Assembly: GCA_025526915.1 (NCBI GenBank)
Contig: JAHLKH010000088.1
Span: forward strand, 1 to 64,000
Source: Entophlyctis helioformis
Lineage: Eukaryota; Chytridiomycota; Chytridiomycetes; Chytridiales; Chytriomycetaceae
DNA: 64,000 nucleotides
Direction: 5' to 3'
The translations under genes and the position numbers were made by a program. This document shows, in pieces, positions 3 to 15,197 of the stretch. Below the pieces are notes generated by a model. It made no database searches. It saw only the letters and a program-made list of their open reading frames with translations, and had not been told where the DNA came from. The first letter of the stretch is position 1. Each line of letters begins with the position of its first letter.

Positions 3-2411
3 GGCGTCGTTGAGCGCAAGAACCGCACTGTCTTTGACGCGGTGCGCACGATCCTGATCGACTCTGGCCTGCCTCCATCGCTCTGGGCCGAGATCGCCCG
101 CACGGTCGTGACTGTGCAGAACCTACTGCCTCACTCATCTCTCAACGGCCGCGTCCCGTTCAACCTCTACCACGGCCGCTCGCCCAACTACGATCGTCTT
201 CGCGCCATCGGCTGTCTTGCCCACGCCACGATCATTGACGGCTCCAACAACAAGCTCCAGCCTCGCGCCATGGAATGTGTCATGCTCGGCTACGCTGACA
301 ATGCCAAGGGCTATCGTCTCTACTCGCTCAAGGACCACGCAGTCGTCATTTCTCGCGATGTCCGGTTCCACGAGCACGTCTTCCCGCTCAGACCCAACAG
401 CGCAGTCGTCGTTCCTACCGATCCGCGTCAGTCTTCATCGCCCATCGCAGCTCCCTCTGCCTCAAGCCCCGCTGCATCGGCCGAGGAGGGGGTAGTATCT
501 GACACGGTCGATTCCTCGGTCGACTCCGACTCCTCTGACGATCCCACGATCCGAGACAACTCGCCTGAGCACGATCTCTCTGCATCCGAGGACGGCTCGT
601 CTGACGGCAATGACTCCGACTCTGGCCATCCCATCTCGTCGTTCATGCAACTCGCCACATCCGCGGCTCAAGCGGTTGGCCTCTCAAGTGCACAGCGCTC
701 TGCCCGTTCTACTCGCAACCCGAAGGCCGTCTACAACGAGAAGGAGATGGCCGATCAGGCATGGAGACGCGACAAGTCAGTGAACATCGCAGTCACAAGC
801 GATTTCGCGTTCACCGTCACCATGGACGACTGCGACGATCCTCTGCCCGACTATCCAATGGTTGGCAACGAGCCCGAGACGTACGCTGAGGCCATGGCCC
901 GCCCTGATGCCGCCAAGTGGGAAGCCGCAATGCGCGCGGAATTCGACTCTCTTAGCGCGCACCACACCTACAACATCGTCCCTCGTCCTCACGGCGCCAA
1001 AGTCATTGGCCTTCGCTGGGTATTCCGCTACAAGAAGCAGGCAGACGGCTCGATCCTTTACAAGGCCCGTCTTGTCGCTCAGGGGTACTCCCAGACGCTC
1101 GGCATCGATTACAACGAGACATTTGCTCCAGTCTTACGCTTTGTCTCACTGCGCGTCCTCCTCACTCATGCGGCCATTCACGATCTCGAAGTGCACCAGA
1201 TGGACGTCGTCACCGCGTTTCTGAACGGCCTTCTCGAGGAAACTGTCTACACTCGTCAGGCACCCGGCTTTGCAACCGGTGATCCCTCGGCTGTCTACCA
1301 TCTCAACAAAGCGCTGTACGGCCTCAAGCAGAGTCCTCGCGCGTTCTTCAAGGTGCTCAGCAGCCACTTGCTCTCGATCGGCTTCGCCGCCTGCAAGTCC
1401 GACCCATGCGTCTTCGTCAGGAACGCCAAGTCGCTCATCTTTGTGACCGTCTACGTCGACGACCTGCTGATCATCTCCAAGTCGAAGGATGAGATTGCCA
1501 ACGTCAAGCGCGACCTCGCCAGCAAGTTTCAGATGAAGGACCTCGGCGAGATCGATCTCCTGCTCGGCATTCGCATCACAAGAGACCGCGCGGCTTGCAC
1601 GATCTTCCTCAGTCAAGAGCACTACCTGCGGAACGTTCTCGAGCGCTTTGACATGTCGAACTGCAAGGGCATGACCAACCCAATCAATCCCTCGGCCCAA
1701 GCTCTTGTTGTAAGCACTGACGCGTCAAGTCCAAGCGTCCCTTATCGCGAGGCCGTCGGTTCACTCATGTACGCCATGGTCGCCACTCGCCCGGATCTCG
1801 CTGCTGCCGTTGGTCTCGTCGCTCGTCACATGTCCAACTTTGACATGAGCCACTGGAACGCCGTCTCGCACATCCTCAAGTACGTCAAGACGACGGTCGA
1901 CTTCAAGCTGACACTCGGCGGTTCCTCGCACTCAAGCTCGACCATTCAAGCTTACTGCGACGCCGACTGGGCTGGCGACATTGACACTCGACGCTCTACG
2001 TCCGGCTACGCCATCTTCTACAACAACTCGTGCGTCTCATGGCGATCATCCAAGCAAAAGGTCGTCGCCACCTCCACCGCTGAGGCCGAGTTCATGGCCG
2101 CCTGTCTCGCCACTCAAGAACTCGCCTACGTCAGTCAGCTGCTCGCCGAGATCAAGAGTCCTGCTGCTCAGCCCATCACGCTTCACTGCGACTCGCAAGC
2201 CGCCATTCAGCAGATCAACAATCCCGGCAGTAACCACGGCGCCTCCAAGCACGTCGACATCAAGTACCACTACGTCAAGGACATGGTCGCCAAGGGTCTG
2301 ATCAAGATGGCCTACGTCCGCACCGACAATCAGGTCGCCGACATCTTCACCAAGTGCGTCAAGACGCCCGCGTTCATCAGTCTTCGCGAGCATCTGCGCC
2401 TCAAGGACTGA
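3..2411 (+). CDS. Ty1/copia retrotransposon polyprotein, 3' part (integrase end, RT, RNase H)
   Basis: The reading frame is already open at the left edge, so the gag, protease and early integrase parts lie outside the window. The first residues read GVVERKNRT, the conserved end of the copia integrase core. A Ser/Asp-rich linker follows (about residues 130-230). The reverse transcriptase comes next, with the copia signatures LDVHQMDVVTAFLNG-like (here VHQMDVVTAFLNG), YGLKQSPRAF and the catalytic YVDD. The RNase H domain has CDADWAGD, a TAEAEF motif and HVDIKYHYVKD, and ends in ADIFTK. The frame is uninterrupted from edge to stop, so this half of the element looks intact. A polypurine tract and LTR start lie about 12-20 bp past the stop, as expected for copia. 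Whether the missing 5' half is intact cannot be seen. Confidence 0.93.
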   Translation, partial: GVVERKNRTVFDAVRTILIDSGLPPSLWAEIARTVVTVQNLLPHSSLNGRVPFNLYHGRSPNYDRLRAIGCLAHATIIDGSNNKLQPRAMECVMLGYADNAKGYRLYSLKDHAVVISRDVRFHEHVFPLRPNSAVVVPTDPRQSSSPIAAPSASSPAASAEEGVVSDTVDSSVDSDSSDDPTIRDNSPEHDLSASEDGSSDGNDSDSGHPISSFMQLATSAAQAVGLSSAQRSARSTRNPKAVYNEKEMADQAWRRDKSVNIAVTSDFAFTVTMDDCDDPLPDYPMVGNEPETYAEAMARPDAAKWEAAMRAEFDSLSAHHTYNIVPRPHGAKVIGLRWVFRYKKQADGSILYKARLVAQGYSQTLGIDYNETFAPVLRFVSLRVLLTHAAIHDLEVHQMDVVTAFLNGLLEETVYTRQAPGFATGDPSAVYHLNKALYGLKQSPRAFFKVLSSHLLSIGFAACKSDPCVFVRNAKSLIFVTVYVDDLLIISKSKDEIANVKRDLASKFQMKDLGEIDLLLGIRITRDRAACTIFLSQEHYLRNVLERFDMSNCKGMTNPINPSAQALVVSTDASSPSVPYREAVGSLMYAMVATRPDLAAAVGLVARHMSNFDMSHWNAVSHILKYVKTTVDFKLTLGGSSHSSSTIQAYCDADWAGDIDTRRSTSGYAIFYNNSCVSWRSSKQKVVATSTAEAEFMAACLATQELAYVSQLLAEIKSPAAQPITLHCDSQAAIQQINNPGSNHGASKHVDIKYHYVKDMVAKGLIKMAYVRTDNQVADIFTKCVKTPAFISLREHLRLKD

Positions 2412-2870: not shown

Positions 2871-4435
2871 CCCGTACGTACCTACCTTTGACACGGGCCG
2901 CGGCAGACGGTGCCAGGGCCGGCTCAGACGGGAAGGACCGCGGGTGGCGGCCAAACGCCAGGAAGAAAGGTGCAAAGCCAGACGAAGCCGACGGCGCGCA
3001 GTTGAGGCCAAAGCAGGTGGGACCGAGCAGCAGCGGCCAGTCAGAGCCGTGGTAATCGGCCGCCTTGGCGAGCGCATCCTTGATGGTGCGGATGCTGCGT
3101 TCGGCCAAGCCGTCAGTCTGCTGGTGGCGAGCCGTGCTGAGGTTCTGCTTGATCCGGGCAGCGGTGCAGAGGCTCGACCAGAAGGCCGACAGCCAGCGGG
3201 CGTCGCGGTCCGAGACGATGTCGACTGGGAAGCCCTTGCCCGAGCAGACCCAGCGAGTCAGGAAGAGCTCGGCCAGCTCCTGGGCCGACGACAGCGGCGG
3301 CACGGGAACGCGTCGCAGAGGCCGGACAGGCGATCGACCACAACCAGAGCAGCATCAAACGCATCGTCTTGTCCGCCCGCGGGCAGGAACATGACGTCCA
3401 TGGCGACGCTCGAGAAGCAGTCGTCCGGGATCGCGAGTGGATGCAGCAGGCCGTCAGGCCGGTGATTGGGCGTGCGGTGGCGCTGGCACACGTCGCATGA
3501 GGCGACATAGGCAGCAATGTCCTCAGACATTCTGGGCCAGAAGTACCGGTTCGACAAGCGGCTGGTGGTCCGCTGACGTCCCTGGTGCGCACCAAAGGGA
3601 GAGTCGTGGTAGTGGGCAGCAGATCCGCGCGCAGAGACTGCGGCACATACAAGCGGTTGCCTTTGTACCACCACGCGCCATCCAAGCACTCCATGTGCAC
3701 TACGACCTTGCGGTCGGCCGGCGTGGCTGATGACGGGTCGGCCTTCCAGCCAGGCAGTCTGGAGGCGAATGGGTCGGCCGGCAACGCCGCACGCACGTCT
3801 TTCGCCCAGTCAGAGTCAGTGCGCAGATTGGCAGCACGGATCGGGACAGGCGAGCGACAGTTTGTGCAGAGAGGGGCCTTTGAGGGATCGCGGGACAGCA
3901 GATCGGCCAGCGAGTTGAGCTCGCCAGGCACGTACTCGATGGATGTATCAAACTCCTGCAGAGACAGGACCCATCGAGCCTGCCGATCCGACAGGTGGGG
4001 CTGCGTGGCCAACCAGACCAGCGCCTTGTGGTCAGTGTGCGTGACAGAGCGCACACTGGACAGCAGATGACGGAAACGCGAGAAGAACTCCACGATGGCG
4101 AGCAACTCGCGTTCGTGGGTTGGATAGTTCATCTCGGCTGGGCTAAGCTTACGTGACCAGCAGGCCACCAGCTTCTCGCCATCTGGGTGGATCTGCGACA
4201 GGTAGCCGGCAATGACGTAGTTGCTGGCATCAGTGTAGACATGCGTTTCCAGAGCCGGGTCAAAGAACCGCAGCTCAGTTGCCTTCAACACTGCCTGTCG
4301 CAGGTCTCCACAGCCTGCTTTTGAGCAGGGCCCCATTCCCACTTGGCATTCTTGGCTAGTAGCTTGTATAGTGGCAGACACATGGTGGCGTACGCCTTTG
4401 CAGGGTTCGGCCCGCCAATGAATGACTTTAACCAC
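2870..4435 (-). pseudogene. Ty3/gypsy RNase H and integrase, frameshifted remnant
   Basis: This is the continuation of the gypsy pol gene in three successive frames. RNase H motifs THVYTDASNYVIAGYL and YPTHERELLAIVEF lie at about 3990-4260. The integrase zinc-binding part (H...H...CDVCQRH) and first catalytic Asp region (MDVMFLPAGG) lie in a second frame at about 3340-3640. The second Asp (IVSDRDARW) and the Glu (QQTDGLAERS) lie in a third frame at about 3080-3230. Each frame change leaves recognisable domain sequence on both sides, so these are small indels in a once-functional gene and not introns. The element cannot encode an intact integrase. Confidence 0.8.
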
Positions 4436-7400
4436 ACAAGCTTACCTAGCCAAGTTGCCAGAGTGGACGTGTTTGAGATGTGGGGGGCAGCTGCCATGTC
4501 CTGCAAGTGCTTTGGCGCAATGGAATAACCAGTGGGCGAGAGCACGTGACCACAGAACTCAATGTCCTGCTGCAGGATCATGCACTTGGACGGCTTAATG
4601 TACAATTGAGCCTCCAGTAGCAGCTTGAGAACAGTGCGTAGGTGTTTGATATGCTCCTTGTACGTCGCGCTGTAGATGTAGATGTCGTCCATGTACACCG
4701 AGACGCACGTGCCCAGCAGCTCATTGAGCGTCGACTGGATGGCCTGTGTAAACACCGCCGGAGCATTGGTCAGCCCGAAAGGCATGACCGTGAACTCAAA
4801 GTGACCAAACTGGGTGGAGAACGCAGTTTTCCACTGGTCCTCCGCCTTAACACGAATGTTAAGGAAGCCCTCGCGGATGTCAAGCATCGAGCGGAAGGGT
4901 TTGTTTGCCAAGTTATCACGGAGGGTCTCAATCTCCGGGATCGCACTGTGGAACTTCACCGAGATGTTGTTCAAGCCGCGGTAGTCGATGACCAACCGCA
5001 GCGAACCATCCTTTTTGCGGACAAAGAGCGTGCCGGCGCCCAAAGGCGATGACGAGCGGCGGATGTAACCTTTGGTGTACCACTCGTCCAGCTGCTTCTT
5101 GAGCGCTACGGATGCATCCTGGTTCAGTCTCTTGAGGCCACGACGCGGCGGCAGCTGCGCATCCTTAATGAAAGGGATCGCAATCTCGAACTCCGAGTCG
5201 TGCGCACGGCCTTGCGGCGGGCAGCAGACCTCGTAGTACTCGATGAATGCCTTCTGCGTCTCCTCGTCCGGGCAGACTGGAAGGTAGGGGTACTTCTCCT
5301 TCAGCTCGTCCGGGGTGAGGCCGTTTGCAGCCGCGACGCGAAGGCGCGCATCGGCAGCTGCCTCACGGTCCTCGGGCAGGTCATCCACATAGACCAGCTC
5401 CGCGTACTCGTCAGGATGGGCGAGGATGTCCGACATGGTAACCACGATGTCAGAGTGCGGCCGGTTGTGGGAGGCAGCGGACGGCGGAGCGTCTTTGTGC
5501 TGCCAGATGTGGTGCACATCGGGGCGCGACTCGGTTGAGAAGCGGAAAACGCCGCGCCGGAAGTTGAACGACGCCTTCGCGGTTGTGCGCAGCCATGGCA
5601 TGCCCAGGATGACATCATCCACACCATCGTAGACAAGGAACCGCACCTGGCTGACAGCATTAGATCTGTCCGCGAGCGTGAGGTAGACCTCCGAATCTAG
5701 TCTCTGCAAGTTGCCGTTGGCAAACTCGAGAGTCACCGCCTGCCGGGTGAACGGCCGGGCAGCGGCGAGCAGGCCGTTGGCATCCAACCAACGGCGAGCT
5801 ACCAGATTCGCGCTGCTGCCAGTGTCCACCAGGACACTGGCACTGCGATTGTCCAGGAACACCGGGAAGGTGCACCGGTGCTTGGTGATCGGAGTCACCG
5901 GGGCAAGGTGCCCCTCCTTCAGCCGCGACGGCGGCATAACAGGGCAAGCAGGATGAACGGGGAGCCCAGAGGGCATCTTTTTATTCGCAACGCCACCCAG
6001 AGGGTCACTCTTCTTCGTCTGCGTCGCTGTACTGCGTCCCGTCGTCTGAGAACGACGAGACGGTTTCGAGCGACCGCGAGCCGGAGCCATTGCTGGTGCG
6101 CCGTCGTCACGGGCAGGGACCGATGGAGATTCGGTGTCAGCATTGGGCTTACGCACGGCTGCAGGCTTAGCCGCCGAAGCGTGCTTAGCCGCAGGAGCAG
6201 GAGGAGCCAAAGGGGGCGAGCGAACATACCCGGGTGCCTTGGCCTTTGCCGCGATGCGCCCGACCTTAGAGTGGGGCGGGCGCTGGCTAGGCGATCGGCC
6301 AGCATGGTCGGCTGTCGCAGCAGGCGAGGCAGCCTTACGCGTCTCAGACGCGCTGCTACTGCCGGAAGGCGCAGGAGTGGCCTTGGGCGATGAGGAGCTC
6401 CAAGAACGCGGCGACGCGGCGGCTGTCTTGCCAGAGCTGGGCGTCGACTTGGCGTCTTGGGCCTTGTGAGCGTTGGCGAGGGCAGTGGCAATTGCAATGT
6501 TACGCTCGTGTTCCTCCGCGCCTGAGTGTCGCTTGATGAACGCCTCGCGGAGGGCCGAGTAGGTCGTGAGCGAATCCCACGCCTCGGGCTTGTCCTTGAT
6601 GCGCGTGCGGAGGAATGTGAGCATCTCCGCCTCCGTAAGCTGGGCGTCACCAAACAGCCGCTCGGCTGCATGTAGCCAATCCTGCGGGACACGGCCATGG
6701 CACTCAGTGGGCGCAAAGTCACGCTCCAGCTTCTGGCGAGCCTGGCCTCGGACTCGTTCCGGGGCACTGTGGCGCGACACGAGGTCCGCAAGGAAGTGGG
6801 CGAGCGTCGGGGGCGGATCGTCTGTCTTGAGCGACTTGAACCAGGCGGTGGCAAATACGCGGGCCTCGCCTGTGAGGAGCGTCAGGAGGGTTGCGCCAAT
6901 GTCGCTCAGGGGGATCGCGTCCACGCCGGTCGCCTTGCAGGCGCTCTTGTAGGCCATCTCAATGGCAAGGACAAATGGCTCAAGGCTCTCGCGAGTGGCG
7001 TTCCAGTTGACCGTCAGCTGCGAGCCCTTGACCATGACAAGGCCGTTGAACGGCGCCTGTCTGCCAAGCGACTCCGAGAACACCTTGGCCAAGTTTGGTG
7101 CACGGGCATCCACGACTGCTGGCAGGCGAGCATCCACCGAGGATCCAGACGCGGGGGCCGGACGCGAGTCCACCGAGGACCCAAGCGCCTGGACCGGATG
7201 CTCCGCAAGCAGGGTCGCCGTGGCTGAGGCCTGCGCCAACGCGGCATTTGCCGTTTTGGTGGCCTTGGCAACGGCATCCGAGAAGACCTGCTCCAGTGCA
7301 ATCACGGATTCCGACGTGTTGGCGACGCTCTTCTGCAGGCCCCGTATGGCCTCTGAGTTGGCCTCGACGGAGTCAAAGAGTGCCACCAGGCGTTGATGGT

Positions 7401-7941
7401 GGAGCTGGGTGGCGCTGGAGTAGGCCTCAGCCTGCCTGGCGGCAGTGTCGCGGTCGGCCTGCAGCTGCAGCCGCAGATCATCGATGGCCGCGTGGGCAGC
7501 GGCCGCAGATGATGTGGTTGCCTTGAGTGCTCGGCTGGTGTCTGACGCCCCCGTGTGGAGGCGCACGAGTTCGTAGAACATGTGCTCTCCAGTGATGGTG
7601 AAGGGCCGCCTGGGGGCACTCCCAGCGCCGGGCTGGACGGCCGGCGTGCTGGAGAGGAACGCCTCTTGGCGCCGACCAGCGTCTGCATCGTGGCGGCCCA
7701 ACAGATCGGCCGAGGAGTGGCGGCGCGCTGGTGAGGCGCCAAAAGACGCGCCCAGAGCAGAGTCGGCCATCAAGACGGACGACGTACCCGCAGGGTCGGG
7801 GCGGTGCTGGAACCTTGGGGGGGTGGCGTCGATGAACGAGCGGGCCGTATCGAACGAGGCCTCGCCAAGGAGGTCCTGGTCGGTGCCCAAGGGGGCGGCA
7901 GCCGAGCGAGCCGCGGGCTGGGGCGAGCGCTCGACGGCCAT
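4285..7941 (-). CDS. Ty3/gypsy Gag-Pol: gag, protease, reverse transcriptase (truncated by frameshift)
   Basis: The start is placed at the ATG at 7941 (protein begins MAVERSPQP). The frame is open 32 codons further upstream but has only a GTG there. The N-terminal 550 residues are a gag-like region with helical Ala-rich stretches. They are followed by a basic Ser/Pro-rich linker, with no CCHC zinc knuckle seen. The protease active site reads VDTGSSANLV. The reverse transcriptase shows LRLVIDYRGLN, MPFGLTNAPAVF and the catalytic YMDDIYIYS. The frame ends at 4285 shortly after the RT connection region (KWEWGPAQKQA). The RNase H that should follow continues in another frame, so the polyprotein is prematurely ended. 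Confidence 0.85.
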   Translation of the reverse strand: MAVERSPQPAARSAAAPLGTDQDLLGEASFDTARSFIDATPPRFQHRPDPAGTSSVLMADSALGASFGASPARRHSSADLLGRHDADAGRRQEAFLSSTPAVQPGAGSAPRRPFTITGEHMFYELVRLHTGASDTSRALKATTSSAAAAHAAIDDLRLQLQADRDTAARQAEAYSSATQLHHQRLVALFDSVEANSEAIRGLQKSVANTSESVIALEQVFSDAVAKATKTANAALAQASATATLLAEHPVQALGSSVDSRPAPASGSSVDARLPAVVDARAPNLAKVFSESLGRQAPFNGLVMVKGSQLTVNWNATRESLEPFVLAIEMAYKSACKATGVDAIPLSDIGATLLTLLTGEARVFATAWFKSLKTDDPPPTLAHFLADLVSRHSAPERVRGQARQKLERDFAPTECHGRVPQDWLHAAERLFGDAQLTEAEMLTFLRTRIKDKPEAWDSLTTYSALREAFIKRHSGAEEHERNIAIATALANAHKAQDAKSTPSSGKTAAASPRSWSSSSPKATPAPSGSSSASETRKAASPAATADHAGRSPSQRPPHSKVGRIAAKAKAPGYVRSPPLAPPAPAAKHASAAKPAAVRKPNADTESPSVPARDDGAPAMAPARGRSKPSRRSQTTGRSTATQTKKSDPLGGVANKKMPSGLPVHPACPVMPPSRLKEGHLAPVTPITKHRCTFPVFLDNRSASVLVDTGSSANLVARRWLDANGLLAAARPFTRQAVTLEFANGNLQRLDSEVYLTLADRSNAVSQVRFLVYDGVDDVILGMPWLRTTAKASFNFRRGVFRFSTESRPDVHHIWQHKDAPPSAASHNRPHSDIVVTMSDILAHPDEYAELVYVDDLPEDREAAADARLRVAAANGLTPDELKEKYPYLPVCPDEETQKAFIEYYEVCCPPQGRAHDSEFEIAIPFIKDAQLPPRRGLKRLNQDASVALKKQLDEWYTKGYIRRSSSPLGAGTLFVRKKDGSLRLVIDYRGLNNISVKFHSAIPEIETLRDNLANKPFRSMLDIREGFLNIRVKAEDQWKTAFSTQFGHFEFTVMPFGLTNAPAVFTQAIQSTLNELLGTCVSVYMDDIYIYSATYKEHIKHLRTVLKLLLEAQLYIKPSKCMILQQDIEFCGHVLSPTGYSIAPKHLQDMAAAPHISNTSTLATWLGKLVWLKSFIGGPNPAKAYATMCLPLYKLLAKNAKWEWGPAQKQAVETCDRQC

Positions 7942-8061
7942 CTGAAAAAAAAAACGGAAAAATCGACGGAAAAATCGATCGACGGCGGCGGGAAACGGCG
8001 GCCGACGGCGTCGAGAGGGCGGTTCTTGCTGTAGCACTGGGCCTCCAGGCAGACTTGCCGG

Positions 8062-8188
8062 CTGGTCTCTCGGGTCAGTATGTGTGCACGCGAGGAAGGG
8101 CGGGCAGACGACTCTTCATTGGGAGGCAGCACAGACCTGGTCTCTCGGGTCAGTATGTGTGCACGCGAGGAAGGGCGGGCAGACGACT
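8062..8188. repeat. Two direct copies of a 52-bp unit, 75-bp period
   Basis: The stretch starting CTGGTCTCTCGGGTCAG occurs at 8062-8113 and again, apparently without mismatch, at 8137-8188. The copies are separated by 23 bp. They lie between the gypsy gag start and the Fanzor gene. They may be part of the gypsy 5' LTR or leader. Two copies with such a spacing do not make a CRISPR array. Confidence 0.8.
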
Positions 8189-8240
8189 GCAAGAACGGGG
8201 GAAACCAGAGCGGCCAGTGCGGCCCGACAATGTCTGTCTG

Positions 8241-8268
8241 GTCACGTGGGTCACGTGGATCACGTGAC
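8241..8268. promoter_or_regulatory. Three CACGTG boxes forming an inverted repeat upstream of the Fanzor gene
   Basis: CACGTG occurs at 8243, 8252 and 8261, spaced exactly 9 bp apart. The outer arms are GTCACGTG (8241-8248) and CACGTGAC (8261-8268), an 8-bp perfect inverted repeat with a 12-bp loop. CACGTG is the E-box bound by bHLH factors such as Cbf1 and Pho4 in fungi. The cluster is 108 bp before the proposed ATG, so a promoter role is plausible. The same two arms recur at the 3' end of the gene. Confidence 0.45.
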
Positions 8269-8376
8269 CGCGACCGAGCATCCGTTACACCCATGCTCTC
8301 AGCCGCTTCTTCACATTGACCAACATCGACAAGAAACGTATCTTTGAGGCGCTCGAGGAGCTGGCTCAATTGATGG

Positions 8377-11300
8377 ATGGATTCACGGTCTGCCATTGCA
8401 ACTACGAGGCAGACTGTTGCATCGCCCGCCATGTTTGCAAGTCAAGGTAAGAGATCGTCATGGCGTTCTTCTGTTCTAGTTGATGGCTCACAGTATGCAT
8501 TGAGTGGCAGTCCAAAGCCAATGCTTGTTGTTGGAAATGACTCCGACCTTGTTGCCCATGCTGCTGGGCATTGTGCTGTCATTTTGACACACATGCAGCA
8601 TGGGCGGATTGCACCAATGCGATCCTACAACCATGGTGGGATTGCCACCATGGCATCCACCTTTGGTGTGCGGGATTTTCGCGGTGTGTGCAAGCTGATT
8701 GCTTCACTTTCTCATACAGATTTCTTTGCCCGCCATGGCTACGGTGAGTTGCCGCGCCTGTTTTGTTGTATCTGTCATCACTCATGCCATTCTTTGTCTT
8801 TGTGCACGATTCTGCTTGCATTCCCTGCCAGGAATCGCGGCCGCCGCTGAATTCACCAACACACAGTTCAACGCCAAGGCTGTCAAGCTGGGGATTGAGA
8901 AATTCGAGCTCTGTGCCATCCTTCAAACTCCATTTGAGGCCAGCATATTCATGCATGCTGTCAAGGACGCGTACATCAAGGAGTTGGCTGAGATTGGCGA
9001 TGGGAGCCTTGTGCACTCATTCCAGAATGCATTTGACATCTTTGTCAACCAGACTGAGCCCAGTGCACCAACTGGCGTGATTGCAACCAGGCAAGCTTCT
9101 TGATTAAGTGCGGTTGCAGACATACTGGCATTGACACGTTTGAATGCCTTGCCAGTTCTGAGCATCAATCAGGCAATGCCAACAGCATGGATGTTGACAC
9201 AGCTGCCTCAGCTGAGACCAAGTATGCATGCATGTCATCTGTGGCGTTTCTGGAAAAACTGACACCACATGTCTGTGTTGATGCCATTCTCTGATCATTC
9301 TCCAGGTGCTCGTCGCCTGGATGCTGCTTGAATCATCCCAAGGCAAAGAATGGCGAGCCCATCCCTGCAGCTGTTCATCTTACGCGCAGTGCTGTTGAGC
9401 AGCTTGCCATCACCATTGTCATCAGTGGGCAGCTGGACGCTGCATTCAGGGAAGTCAAGGGATGCCGCGTGGCGATGGGTGCCATCAACAGGCATGCGGT
9501 TGAGCTCCTTGCCAAGAACTACAATGCCGTCACACGCCGTAATATCCTCTCTGCCATCTGCAGGACGGCTAGTACCCAGCTTCTGCAGACCGTCAGGGAG
9601 CAATCTATTGAGCCGGATGAGTACGCAGGTATCAGCAAGCAAGATAAGCTCATTTTGCACGCCTTTGTAAGTTGCTGCATGGCTTGGATGCATGCTGTTG
9701 CTCTTGCACCATGTGTGGTTGTTGACCTTGAATATGACTGACTTGATCCATTGCTCCTGCACAGACTGTTGCTCCAAGAATGCGCGATCGGCTGTACAAG
9801 ATCGCGCATCCCAAACGCGCCACATTCTGCAATGTATCCACTCCCAGTATGTGCTGCTTGCTTTGTGATGACTTGATATCATCCACTCACAATGCCATCA
9901 TTGTGGAACGCATTATTGCAGATCCACAAACGCAGCAAGACACACAGCCGATCAAGCACCGCAGACGGATCAGTACAAGAGTGGCACTGGCAGACACGTT
10001 TGAAGTTATCCATGCGGAGGCCACAGACCTGCTGGACGCCCTGAACGGCCTCAAGAATCGGCGCATCAGCATGGGCAAGGGCAAGGGCAGGGGCAATTCA
10101 ATCACACTTGTCAATCAGCGTCTAAAGGCCATTACTCTGCTGCAGAAAGTCATCGAGCAAGCTGCAGTGCGTCTCATCTTCCATTGTCTGTGTGTGCCGC
10201 AGTGATTTGGCACGATTGCTCATCCTTTTGCTTGACAGGCTGGCCCTCCTCCACCGCCAGAAAAGCTGCCCAAGTCATCTGAGAATGATCGTGCCAACCA
10301 AGCATGCCTTAAGAGATTCCCTCTTGGTGTGTTTGATGACACAAAGACAACTGTGAGTGGAACTGCAGGCTTGTGATTGTGAGCATCTTGTGCACGCAGA
10401 ATGGACACCTGATACTGGATCCAACCGCGACAGGAGCCACGCCATTGCACGCCGGCCATGCTGGCTGCACGTGAGAAGGAGAGGGCAGAGCGTGCAGAGA
10501 AGGCCAAGGCAGATGAGATCGTCAAGGAGAACAAGAAGGATGCGAGCAAGCAAGCCCGCCAGGCTCAATCTGAGGATGAGACACGGGCGTAAGTGGCATA
10601 TGGCATGTCGCGTGCCTTGATTGTGCTTGCTGACATGCATTCTGCTGGCAGATACACATTTCATGATCGACGCGCCTGGCACAATGAGCTTGTCCAGATG
10701 GGCGACTTCCAACAAGGGGCCTGCCAGACTCTTCCTGCAGCCGCCAATTTCAAAGCACCAACAGAGGAGGGCACGGAGAAAGACAAGGAGAAGGACGAGC
10801 ACGAGCGCGAGCAGGAGGCACAGCAGCATCCCAAAGCACCAAAGGCTCAGACAAACACACAGCAACATCGCCCCAATATGATCGTGGATCTGAAGGTATG
10901 GGAGTTGATCGCCATGCTGCTCTGCATGCTCGGCTTTGTGTGTGCTGACAGCTGTGCAGGAGATGGTTTCAGACAATCCAGCAAGCGCAAAGTTGTTGGG
11001 CCCTCCAGCCAAACCACTTTCAGCAGAGCAAACCGTCGCCATGGTTGTCCTAGCCTGCATTTCCAAGGTTTACACGTTCATCGTCGGCGCTCGGCATGTC
11101 GGGATTGTGATGCTCGGCGCTGTTCTCGAAGTACTGCTCAAGCTCGAGTCAGATGAGCCGCTGCCACTTGATTATCGCGTTTTCAAGTGGACCCGCGATG
11201 GAAAGACCAACTACTGCTTTCTTGATCGCGAGAAACTTGACCGCAAGACAGAGGCTGCGCTCTTGGCAGGATACTGTGTGCTGGAAAAGGACACCATGGT

Positions 11301-14300
11301 CCGGTTTATGTACGGCGTTGGTCCACATGGTCGCAAGGGCAAAATCCCTTTCTATGGGGATTCTGTGATCCTCTCAAAGGACACAGTGCTTGAGCTCTGC
11401 TCGCTCGGACGCGTCAAGAAGCCCAAGCAGCCCAATGGCCCCAATGACCCTGACGGTCCTGACAGCCATGAGGACGATCGCGACCACGAGGATGATGATG
11501 ATCATGATGACCACGAGGACGATGAGATCATGAGGATCACAAGGACGACGAGCAGCATGAGGATCACGAGGATGACGAGCAGCATGAGCAGCACGAGCAG
11601 CAAGCAGAAGCAGAAGCAGCAGCAGTCATTCCAACTGCCAATCAACTCCTCACAGCACTGACCAGCAGCAGATCCGGCGGCGAGACGTCTGTGGCATGTC
11701 TCCTACGCCACATTGTCACGATTGTTGGCAATGGTCGCATGGCAAAGCCGCGATCATATATGGACACCACCAACGCATGGCTGGTCACCGTCATGCAACT
11801 GATTGTTCACCGTAACTGGACGCGGCGCATGGTGCACGCCAATGCAGGCAAGGTGCGTGCAGACATGGCTGATGCTGACATGATGGGCATGGATATGATG
11901 GATGCTGACAAGATGGACGCGATCCAGACGAGCACGATTCAGGCGGATTTGGACAAGGCAGTCCTGCCATGCAAGCTGGCTGTTGGTCTGTGTGGGAAAG
12001 CGGCCAATGACATCTACAGCTACTTGGCCCGAGATATCTGCACCATGCTGGCAGTGCATGTCATCTCGAACCAGTCGATGCTCGTGCTTGCTGCTGCCCA
12101 CCAGCTGATGCCCAGTGCATCAAAGGAGGAGGTCGTGGCATCAGTCGCGGCCATGACCAAAGCCATTGAGGACGCCATGCCACTGGCCGCCAAGGACGCG
12201 GCACCACTGGTCGCTGAGGACGCCATGCCAATGGTTGCTGAGGATACCCCATCGCCGGCCAATCTTGACGCTGCACCACAAGCCACTCTGGATGCTGCAC
12301 CTCCTGCAACAGGTCGCAAGAGGGCCCTGTCTAGCTCTTTGTTGCCCACCGATTGCACCGCGACCAAGAAGCCATGTGGCGAGAGGGATGAGGCCACCAC
12401 AGACGTGGCATCCAGCACACCTTCAGACATGGAGGGCATAGCCATTTCTGGGATCCCCCGACAGCTGGTTAGGCTTGCGGCAATCTTGCTCAACAAGTCG
12501 CTGTCGGAAATAGGCAAGTTCTACCGGCTGCGCAAGCTGGCCGGCAAAACAGTGATCAAGTTATGCCCTGAGGCGGCGAATCGGGACCCGTTTGTTCATA
12601 TCACCGAGACCATTCTGTTTTGGTCGGTGATAGGGAACCCAAAGGATCGCAAGCCAACCAAGAACAATGCTGCATTGCAGGCTTTGCAAAAGCGTCTCTT
12701 GGCTGCGATCAGCAGTAGGTCGCACTTGGTTATGCCATGTTTACATGATTTGATACTTACAAACCACTCTTCTCAAAGAGCCTGGCTCGCAAGCCTTGAC
12801 TCTTGCGTCATCCAACAAGGACATACAAGCCGCTTTCAGCTCAAGCCGCGAGGATTGCGTTCTCGACATTCTCCTCCCCGGACTCGCCTCGGATACACGA
12901 CGCTTCCAGACGCCTGCAGACGCTAAGGTCCAGATGGACGCGGCCAACGCCAAGGCAAAGAAAGCGGCTACAGCCAAGGCGACGCGAGAGGCCAACAAGC
13001 AGAGTCTGGTTGGCAAGGAGCGCGAGGATTACATCCAGGCTGCGATCAAAGCCCTGCCCCCAGCGCGACCAACCAAGGCTGTCAGACTAGGCAGCATCAA
13101 GACCGATGGATACAGCGTTTCTCAGCTGACTCTGGACTTTCGCACAGACCGTCCAGAGTCGCCTCGCAGTATGTGGCATACTTGAATGCGATGGTGCACA
13201 CATTGATTCTGACATCCGCCTTGCTCTGCAGATCCCAATGCGGCTTCTCCAGCCCAGCAGCTCAGTCTTGCTGGTGATGCTCATGATGATGAGGCCAATG
13301 ACGGGCATGATCACATGGATTGCGAATGTGAGTTGCTGTGCCAATCCAGACGCGCACTTGTTGTCCACACCGACTGACATGCCATCCACAGCCGCCAATC
13401 CAGCCAACCCATCAGCCGCCAAGCCAAAAGCGCCCAATCCTGTAAGTCACTTGCATGCTAACCTCGCGCATTAGTGCACATGCGTTGCACATTCCTCACT
13501 CATGCCATGGCACGACAGGCCCAGCGCAACTTTTACGCCTCTCAGCAATTGCCCAACATCCTCAAAGCCAACAATCTGTTCACCAACAAGGGCTACCGGT
13601 TTGTGCGTATTGTCAGCTTTGATTGGGGCGAGCGGTACCTGTATGGCGCATCCAGCATCTTGGTCGATCTCAGAGACTTTTCGTATAAGCTCGAGGCCAA
13701 CTACGTGCTCGCCTCTGGCATGGCACAAGCTGAGCGCAATTTTCAGTGGTGGTATGCATGCAATGACTCTGCCACGTGCACTCTTGACCAGATCAACTCA
13801 CAGTGCCTGCCTCTTGTGCCAGGTTTGATGACCGACTTGCCAAGGCTGCCGATGTCCACAAGGCCATTGCATTCAAGACAGCAAAGCATGCCGATCCAAA
13901 CGTCAAGCCTGGCGAGAGAGCCTTTTGGGATCTGCGCTGCCATGCGTACTGCACGCCATTCCTGAATGCACGGGTACGGTTTCTCTGTTTCTGGATGCCC
14001 ATTGACATGGCCGCCAAGCTGCTTGATTGCCTGCTGATTGCACTGGATGGCATGGCGTGGCATGGCATTCCACAGAAGGTCAAGGCCAAGCGGTTCACCA
14101 TGTGCAGCAACAGCACGTCTGATCGCGGAAACGCTCTTGAGGGCATCATGAAGCTGGCAGGATCGACCACTGGAAAGCGCGCATCTGCTGCATCTCAAGG
14201 CCGCTGTGACAAGCCAACAGACAAGGACACTCCCGTTGTGTGGGCATTTGGCATCGACTTTACAGGCCAAGGTGGCCGGCACGCTGTGTTTGAGAAGTTT

Positions 14301-14903
14301 CTCATCAGGCATCTGCGGTCGTCTGGATATGCCTATGTGCGTCTGATGCCCATCCCATCCATCTGTGCACCAACTGACACACGATCATGCACACACACCA
14401 CACAGATCTACTGCTGCAACGAGAACCTGACCAGCCAGATGTGCCCGCAGTGCAAGCAGCGGATCCCAGACAAGAACCGCACCAACCTGCGACGCTACGA
14501 GTGCACAGACTGCAAGACCGTCTACCACCGAGACGTTCTTGGAGCCACCAACATCGGGATGGTTGCACTGTGGCATCTGCTCTTTGGACACCGGCCGCTC
14601 TACTTGACGCACACCAAAGCCGACAGCAATCCAGCCACGCAAGCGCACCTCAACAGCATCGCGGCAATGCATATCTCCATCCAGCTGCGTGCAATACGTG
14701 CTCCGCCTGTCGACCAGCAGCCTCTGGCACCACCCGATCCGCCCGTCATCCAGCAGCCTCCAACACCACCCGATCGGCCTGTCGTCCAGGATCGTGCAAG
14801 ACGTGTCGACAAGCTGCGTCCAACACAGTCACAGCGCGTCAGCAAGTCACAGCGTGCCAGCAAGTCACGTGCCACTCCACGTGACAAGCCTTTGGCGCTC
14901 TGA
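8377..14903 (+). CDS. Fanzor1-like protein: RuvC/zinc-ribbon RNA-guided nuclease with long N-terminal extension (one frameshift)
   Basis: Fanzor proteins are eukaryotic TnpB relatives that cut DNA guided by an RNA encoded at their own 3' end. A phase-consistent model has 19 exons: 8377-8446, 8480-8683, 8720-8743, 8832-9090, 9120-9221, 9306-9666, 9765-9846, 9922-10166, 10239-10352, 10434-10588, 10652-10895, 10960-12714, 12779-13168, 13232-13327, 13392-13441, 13519-13751, 13823-13973, 14076-14336, 14406-14903 (about 1,764 codons). RuvC-I is IVSFDWGERYLYG (Asp codon 13621). The Fanzor1-type Glu is in CCNENLTSQ (14421). The zinc ribbon is CPQC...CTDC. RuvC-III is YHRDVLGATNIG (Asp 14532). The preceding SIKTDGYSVSQL resembles the TDG segment before RuvC-I in this family. 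The tail is Pro-rich, then basic (Lys/Arg/Ser). A one-base frame change near 11526 interrupts exon 12. The N-terminal 1,000-plus residues match nothing I recognise. Fanzor1 proteins are normally shorter, so a fusion or a mis-joined upstream gene is possible. Confidence 0.85.
14864..14885. repeat. Inverted repeat GTCACGTG/CACGTGAC at the end of the Fanzor coding region
   Basis: The arms GTCACGTG (14864-14871) and CACGTGAC (14878-14885) form a perfect 8-bp inverted repeat with a 6-bp loop. It overlaps the last codons of the Fanzor gene. The identical arm pair stands upstream of the gene at 8241-8268. Confidence 0.6.
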
Positions 14904-14930
14904 CTTGCAACACCACCACCAACTTTTGGA

Positions 14931-14948
14931 ATCGGGGGACCTCCCGAT
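14931..14948 (+). ncRNA. Candidate stem-loop of the Fanzor guide RNA (fRNA/omegaRNA-like)
   Basis: About 30 bp after the Fanzor stop lies ATCGGG-GGACCT-CCCGAT, a perfect 6-bp GC-rich stem with a 6-base loop. In Fanzor and TnpB loci the guide RNA overlaps the gene's 3' end and 3' UTR and contains conserved hairpins upstream of the guide. Position and structure fit, but no covariance or expression evidence is available from one sequence, so this is inference only. The end of the RNA and the guide cannot be defined. Confidence 0.3.
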
Positions 14949-15197
14949 CGACCTAACGGGTCACTTCAATAGAAGGTGAGACCCTTGTTGGATGTGCCTC
15001 GCCCACCTGCCGTCGCATGCTCGTTGCTGACTCGAACCTTCCATCGTGTGATGTATGGGTTTGCATTCGACGCCTCTCGCGTCCAATTTAATTCAATACT
15101 TCTTGGTAATTGTATGAATATCGGGCCAGATTCATTGTGACAGACAGGCAGATGCAGGCAGGATCTGGCCGCAGACGGTGAGAGACAGACAGACAGA

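Follow-up and report, generated by a model that had tools for sequence, protein, structure and literature searches.

The window analysed here is a stretch of 64,000 nucleotides of the chytrid Entophlyctis helioformis (positions 1 to 64,000 of contig JAHLKH010000088.1, referred to as C88 hereafter, in a genome of 29.57 Mb). On its forward strand, at 8294–15127, it carries a 5′-truncated copy of a transposon in which the gene of a probably XPG-like protein is followed by a Fanzor-type nuclease core; the copy was delimited by a DNA search of the organism's own genome and by boundary mapping. The element as a whole is 7–9 kb long, with 23-bp imperfect terminal inverted repeats (TIRs) and 8-bp target site duplications (TSDs), and the window holds its 3′ part. 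An earlier note, made from the letters of the window, had described the core; it had missed the TIR transposon as a whole, the XPG-like partner, and the 5′ truncation.

The Fanzor-type core and the upstream, probably XPG-like protein

The core consists of four forward-strand exons: 13519–13751, with the RuvC-I Asp (codon 13621, in SFDWGERY); 13823–13973; 14076–14336, with a conserved Gly (14250); and 14406–14903, which contains the RuvC-II Glu (14421, in NENLTSQ), a C4 zinc ribbon, the RuvC-III Asp (14532, in YHRDVLG), a variable tail, and the stop codon. The introns between them are 71, 102, and 69 nt long, and the spliced frame is open up to the stop. These junctions recur in the NCBI gene models of paralogous copies, the first two in P0001 and the third in P0003. 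The earlier note had named the same three catalytic codons, to the exact position, and its frame-consistent splicing of 13519–14903 was borne out, with four exons in place of the five it had counted. The spliced core matched the Pfam TNB zinc ribbon PF07282 at 43.7 bits (E 3.2e-11; cut-off 26.3), and in the genome scan this match lay at 14406–14555.

For the comparison of 29 distinct copies of the core, the frame was set by the window copy and the exons were taken up to 14620. All three catalytic acids are retained in 29 of the 29 copies, no stop codon occurs in any of them, and 20 are free of frame-breaking indels; the median ratio of nonsynonymous to synonymous change (Ka/Ks) is 0.45 over 406 pairs. 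The suggestion in the earlier note that the nuclease part is intact is supported. As to the introns, the first (13752–13822) is more conserved than its neighbours, and the one at 13974–14075 is also exon-like in its conservation.

The upstream protein is encoded on the same strand. Its exon at 8295–8446 contains the acids E and D (YEAD), that at 8511–8743 contains NDSD and the last Asp, and further exons occupy 8832–10352 (8832–~9089, ~9154–9221, 9306–9666, 9765–10166, and ~10239–10352). In the copy on C66 the protein starts with MTFVGLL. The NCBI models P0007–P0012 correspond to this protein (P0010 in its N-terminal part only), and diverged versions were found in subfamily B (C342) and in the C125 copy (L054). 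In an alignment of six rows from three subfamilies (A5), in which the other rows are 42–76% identical to P0007 and P0011 is not included, seven acids are invariant: D87, D137, E223, D225, D246, D248, and D306. Their order is that of the XPG/FEN active site, as in FEN1. The spacing of the last five features is also similar, 2/20/2/58/6 in subfamily B versus 2/19/2/49/7 in a host RAD2-like protein (L055, named by eye). The exon at 8511–8743 is free of stops in all 12 copies compared, and its median Ka/Ks is 0.27 (51 usable of 66 pairs). On this sequence evidence the upstream protein is likely to be XPG-like.

In the profile comparisons, the Pfam family XPG_I_2 gave E values of 0.0087–0.12 on the C66 version, P0007, P0008, and P0009; a genome scan with it missed the element copies and picked up just two other genes, identified by eye as RAD2-like and Asteroid-like. 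When the host proteins of RAD2-like and Asteroid-like type were ranked with the A5 profile, they did not rise above shuffles: L056 came seventh in a pool of 2 real and 4000 shuffled sequences, and L055 was not among the best 17 rows. Alignments with hhalign fell into the expected register and were weak (P 0.0065 for the Asteroid-like and 0.031 for the RAD2-like protein). The protein differs from XPG, FEN, and Asteroid nucleases in that its similarity is too low for detection by Protein Data Bank (PDB) profiles and in that it sits in a transposon beside a Fanzor. Academ-type transposons carry an XPG-like nuclease, together with a DDE transposase and short TSDs; they are not known to carry a Fanzor.

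The pairing of the two genes is not confined to the window. Among the matches listed, at least 62 of 150 Fanzor loci have a same-strand XPG-like exon 3–16 kb upstream, while the controls gave 1 case downstream and 5 on the other strand; this count used 150 Fanzor places and 149 chosen XPG-like exon matches, further exons of the same loci being left out. In a separate partial set of XPG-like matches, compared with all 75 left ends of the element, such an exon lies 0.5–2.6 kb inside at least 52 of the 75 and outside none of them (0/75), again among the matches listed.

Ends, target duplications, and copies of the transposon

The TIR pattern, searched at both ends with up to three mismatches, gave 127 forward and 129 reverse matches in the genome, 256 ends in all, and the reversed control pattern gave none in either direction (0 + 0). 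In the window the right TIR occupies 15105–15127 on the reverse strand with 0 mismatches to the pattern. The right end falls within three bases of 15127 in 29 of the 31 mapped copies, and the other two stop at 15115 and 15117. The left end was located in five upstream stretches: three start with GGCCCGGTTCTCATAC, the other two depart from it in the first bases, and tandem subterminal repeats of ~28 bp (by eye) follow in all five. When left and right ends separated by 1–17 kb were paired, 19 of 33 pairs showed an 8-bp TSD with no more than one mismatch, as against 6 of 1056 unpaired combinations. Among the matches listed, 87 right ends entered this comparison, together with all of the 75 left ends except those on C188 and C375 (73 in total).

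Full copies were found on C66 (8981 bp) and C342 (7741 bp). PF07282 occurs at no fewer than 150 places in the genome, all 150 above the cut-off (205 candidates), and the DNA search of the genome, in which 38 of 436 candidates were scored, gave at least 62 matches, with identities of 67–97% once the match of the window to itself is set aside. Two longer elements, of 14.3 kb on C151 and 15.3 kb on C23, have target duplications as well, and neither has an XPG-like match among the matches listed. Short deletion derivatives (1.05 and 2.2 kb; C436, C35, and C199) keep both TIRs and TSDs. The short derivatives on C436 and C35 share flanks, and the 1.05- and 2.2-kb derivatives are candidate ghost loci.

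The junction, the right end, and the state of the window copy

Between the two nuclease parts, an intron at 10353–10433 on the forward strand (81 nt; 83 nt in subfamily B) joins the XPG-like frame to the frame on the Fanzor side. The junction was compared in 16 rows, which represent 15 loci and 11 distinct sequences (L019 and L027 both represent one locus on C35). All 16 rows have a GTGAGT donor at 10353, and in all 16 the acceptor 81–83 nt further on continues the XPG-like frame, in phase 0, into an exon of 155 nt that is open; the subfamilies differ by 2 nt in the length of the intron but not in that of this exon. A shorter alternative acceptor (intron of 47–49 nt) would stop the upstream frame after 24–38 codons. 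The region that follows (10434–12926, forward strand; exons ~10434–10588, 10652–10895, and 10960 onward) has no known domain and includes an acidic repeat at 11482–11597, where the frame of the window copy breaks. It is followed by the exons just upstream of the RuvC core, at 12754–13441 on the same strand, in the order of the NCBI models P0001 and P0005. Since the junction splices in frame in 16 of 16 rows, a single XPG-like/Fanzor polypeptide of roughly 1,900 residues is favoured. It is possible that the protein starts later than this fused reading assumes, and the path to the RuvC exons is one predicted from DNA.

At the other side of the core, a conserved non-coding segment on the forward strand (14926–15127) is the candidate scaffold of a guide RNA: it was aligned in 31 copies, with 84% mean column identity, and conservation in these copies covers the last ~195–228 nt of the element. 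According to Yoon 2023 (PMC10711439), Fanzor guide RNAs arise from this part of the element, and the prediction is that the TIR and the target duplication form part of them. A guide RNA from the right end is thus plausible. Rfam gave no match for the segment. A hairpin near the right end that had looked compensatory was set aside, as it proved to be a mosaic between copies when the alignment was read by eye. The right-end segments of L001–L038 look mosaic in general: copies seem to have exchanged alternative hairpin-like modules, in the manner of gene conversion.

As to the mobilising enzyme, no transposase domain was found in the part of the open reading frames (ORFs) that was scanned, 6 ORFs of the window and 10 ORFs of the C342 and C66 copies, the latter giving only sub-cut-off matches. 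The IS1595/Merlin and MULE domains had no match in the genome, with positive controls, and the hAT domain had none either, with a control that was also silent. KDZ gave 4 genome matches elsewhere; the one place that was read, L057, is without the Fanzor-type TIR. It (G000:C334:6404-7253) holds a KDZ transposase remnant with internal stops.

The window copy itself is incomplete. It is cut at 8294, directly where a repeat of ~264 bp resembling a miniature inverted-repeat transposable element (MITE) abuts its broken left side (8026–8293), and the left end is absent. This MITE-like repeat recurs in or beside four other element copies (L010, L021, L026, and L033), and at its edges 5 bp of element sequence are repeated in L021 and L033. 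The frame break that the earlier note had reported upstream of the core is real: the frame switches inside an Asp/Glu repeat at ~11.5–11.66 kb, across which the copies on C66 and C342 are open. Because the left end is missing and the upstream frame is broken, the window copy is probably dead. A second frame break at ~9.1 kb, taken from the gene model, was dropped, as C66 has it at the same place; there the NCBI model P0007 runs on as SEPQ.. and the window reads SEHQ.., and this discontinuity is more likely an unmodelled GC-AG intron.

To the left of the copy lie a Ty1/copia-type pol ORF (3–2408, forward strand; RVT_2, E 6.5e-70) and a gypsy-like ORF with an aspartyl protease and RVT_1 (4288–7941, reverse strand; RVT_1 E 9.3e-32), so that the mobile-element island proposed in the earlier note holds for the left flank. 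A stretch of 164 bp at 2894–3057 is 100% identical to one beside another element fragment in C231, and is possibly a long terminal repeat of the copia-like pol element.

Relation to known Fanzors and competing explanations

The Fanzor1 motif of Bao and Jurka 2013 (PMC3627910), D-X(125,275)-[TS][TS]-X-X-[C4 zinc finger]-X(5,50)-RD, is present in the window core as D-X188-TS-QM-C4-X5-RD, in agreement with the Fanzor/TnpB pattern given there. The zinc-finger tail of the motif is found in 28 of the 29 copies. The additional Gly (14250) and Glu (14421) are present in 29 of 29, and their equivalence to G500 and E536 of SPu-1 was judged from the order of the residues and not from an alignment. In 28 copies the Glu lies six residues ahead of the zinc finger, the exception being L015, which has a frame-breaking indel. 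The earlier note had taken this relocated Glu as the mark of Fanzor1. Its position is correct; it does not single out Fanzor1, because a Glu ahead of the zinc ribbon is common to Fanzors generally and also occurs in some bacterial TnpBs (Yoon 2023, PMC10711439). In the same account the RuvC-I motif of Fanzors is nearly exclusively DPG, and it is DWG in 29 of the 29 copies here. Since the Fanzor motif and the relocated Glu are present with DWG instead of DPG, we use the term Fanzor1-like; the Fanzor1 label of the earlier note is mostly supported by the sequence, with the DPG fingerprint as the part that does not fit.

With the Fanzor1 elements such as SPu-1 (Bao and Jurka 2013, PMC3627910), the chytrid element shares the C-terminal motif with its extra conserved Gly and Glu, the capture by TIR DNA transposons, some of them without a transposase, and the potential for high copy number (~150 copies of CMe-1A). 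It differs from SPu-1 in size (7–9 kb versus ~2.1 kb), in its many introns (15 in the gene model versus one ORF), and in its TSD (8 bp versus TA, with 9 bp in MuDR-like Fanzor1 elements), as well as in the XPG-like gene in the same unit and the DWG motif. The order of the catalytic acids is that of SpuFz1, GtFz1, and PpFz1 (PMC11423790): the RuvC-I Asp, then a Glu in the loop that precedes the TNB domain, then a third acid beyond that domain, a position held by Asn in GtFz1. Compared with these proteins, the chytrid core is too distant for a PDB profile match, and a longer coding region lies upstream of it. The position of the Glu, six residues ahead of the zinc finger, is also shared with pro-Fanzors and the relocated-Glu TnpBs (Yoon 2023, PMC10711439), from which the chytrid protein differs by D-W-G in place of D-P-G and by being eukaryotic, intron-bearing, and housed in a TIR transposon. 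The nearest proteins found were all models of E. helioformis; no relative outside this species appeared in three protein searches limited to proteins sharing exact words, two of which scored 8000 candidates.

The explanation that we consider best, with a probability of roughly 0.6, is that the window holds a dead, truncated copy of a high-copy chytrid TIR transposon that combines an XPG/FEN-like and a Fanzor nuclease and would rely on RNA-guided recutting and on a transposase in trans. Fuller relatives would have one long coding unit between the TIRs, encoding the XPG/FEN-like nuclease and then the Fanzor-type RuvC nuclease. An RNA from the right end would guide the Fanzor half, its guide portion extending into the flanking DNA. 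The Fanzor half may recut the site emptied by excision, and repair of the cut would then retain the element. The XPG-like half could trim or nick flaps or hairpins that arise as intermediates at the ends or at the cut. DNA transposition itself would probably be carried out by a transposase acting in trans. What is observed are the ends and target duplications, the copy number, the pairing of the two genes, the retained acids, and the predominance of synonymous change; RNA guidance, a fused protein, the two nuclease activities, and the trans-acting transposase are inferences.

Several results weigh against this explanation. On the XPG side, 88 of the 150 Fanzor loci have no XPG-like match among the matches listed. 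In the NCBI model P0011 the second acid is replaced by Asn. XPG_I_2 scored E 1.1e-4 and 22.2 bits on the subfamily B protein, just under its cut-off of 24.2 bits, and gave no match on the C125 version. The PDB profile search with the XPG-like alignment yielded no convincing chain and no FEN chain, and that with the Fanzor alignment no convincing chain and no Fanzor chain. Both AlphaFold models are low in confidence (pLDDT 38.5 and 39.3). The fold of the right end is no better than that of shuffles (minimum free energy z −0.13), and its covariation is slight, with two-sided change at two pairs only. A clear 8-bp TSD is missing in 14 of the 33 paired ends. The DWG motif belongs here as well. Finally, the core introns are as well conserved as the exons among the copies, so that recent spread or gene conversion may account for part of the core conservation.

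The most serious competitor, which we regard as doubtful, is an ordinary Fanzor1 transposon: the upstream nuclease would be a separate protein, cargo or remnant only, the Fanzor would act alone, and a DDE transposase in trans would move the element. Bao and Jurka 2013 (PMC3627910) describe TIR elements that carry a Fanzor1 and lack a transposase of their own; in subfamily A an ATG lies just past the junction, the alternative acceptor would end the upstream frame early, and the short deletion derivatives, which have TIRs and TSDs, also suit this view. Against it, synonymous change predominates in the upstream gene across diverged subfamilies, and this gene keeps its place just inside most of the left ends; an early ATG for a possible separate Fanzor protein is lacking in the 9 of 16 junction rows that belong to subfamily B, and the 155-nt exon is open in every row. 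A further reading, in which a single XPG/FEN–Fanzor polypeptide works without any DDE transposase and its two halves perform part or all of excision and homing, seems unlikely.

It is rather improbable that the Fanzor-like half lies outside the DPG lineage and stems from a bacterial TnpB, having a relocated Glu and a D-hydrophobic-G motif, that eukaryotes captured independently. DWG in 29 of 29 copies, together with the relocated Glu, speaks for such an origin, as does the description of a relocated-Glu clade with D-hydrophobic-G (Yoon 2023, PMC10711439), but no relative was confirmed in viral contigs or in the prokaryote genome collection with two peptide patterns per scan, the spliced exons and the TIR setting fit Fanzor1, and a single residue can change secondarily. 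Domestication as a host gene rather than mobility, to which the core Ka/Ks below 1 would be agreeable, is barely credible: it is contradicted by the target duplications, which lie at different sites, and the 256 TIR ends and the decayed copies also stand against it.

A literature search found no description of a pairing of Fanzor and XPG; it covered mostly open literature, so the pairing may be published. If true, the fusion would be an architecture unreported as far as we searched, and a lead for programmable nucleases with built-in end processing. The pairing hints at a possible coupling between RNA-guided cutting and the processing of flaps or hairpins. A family with so many copies, clear ends, and a conserved second nuclease whose frame seems continuous with that of the Fanzor is a natural setting for testing what Fanzors do for the retention of eukaryotic transposons.

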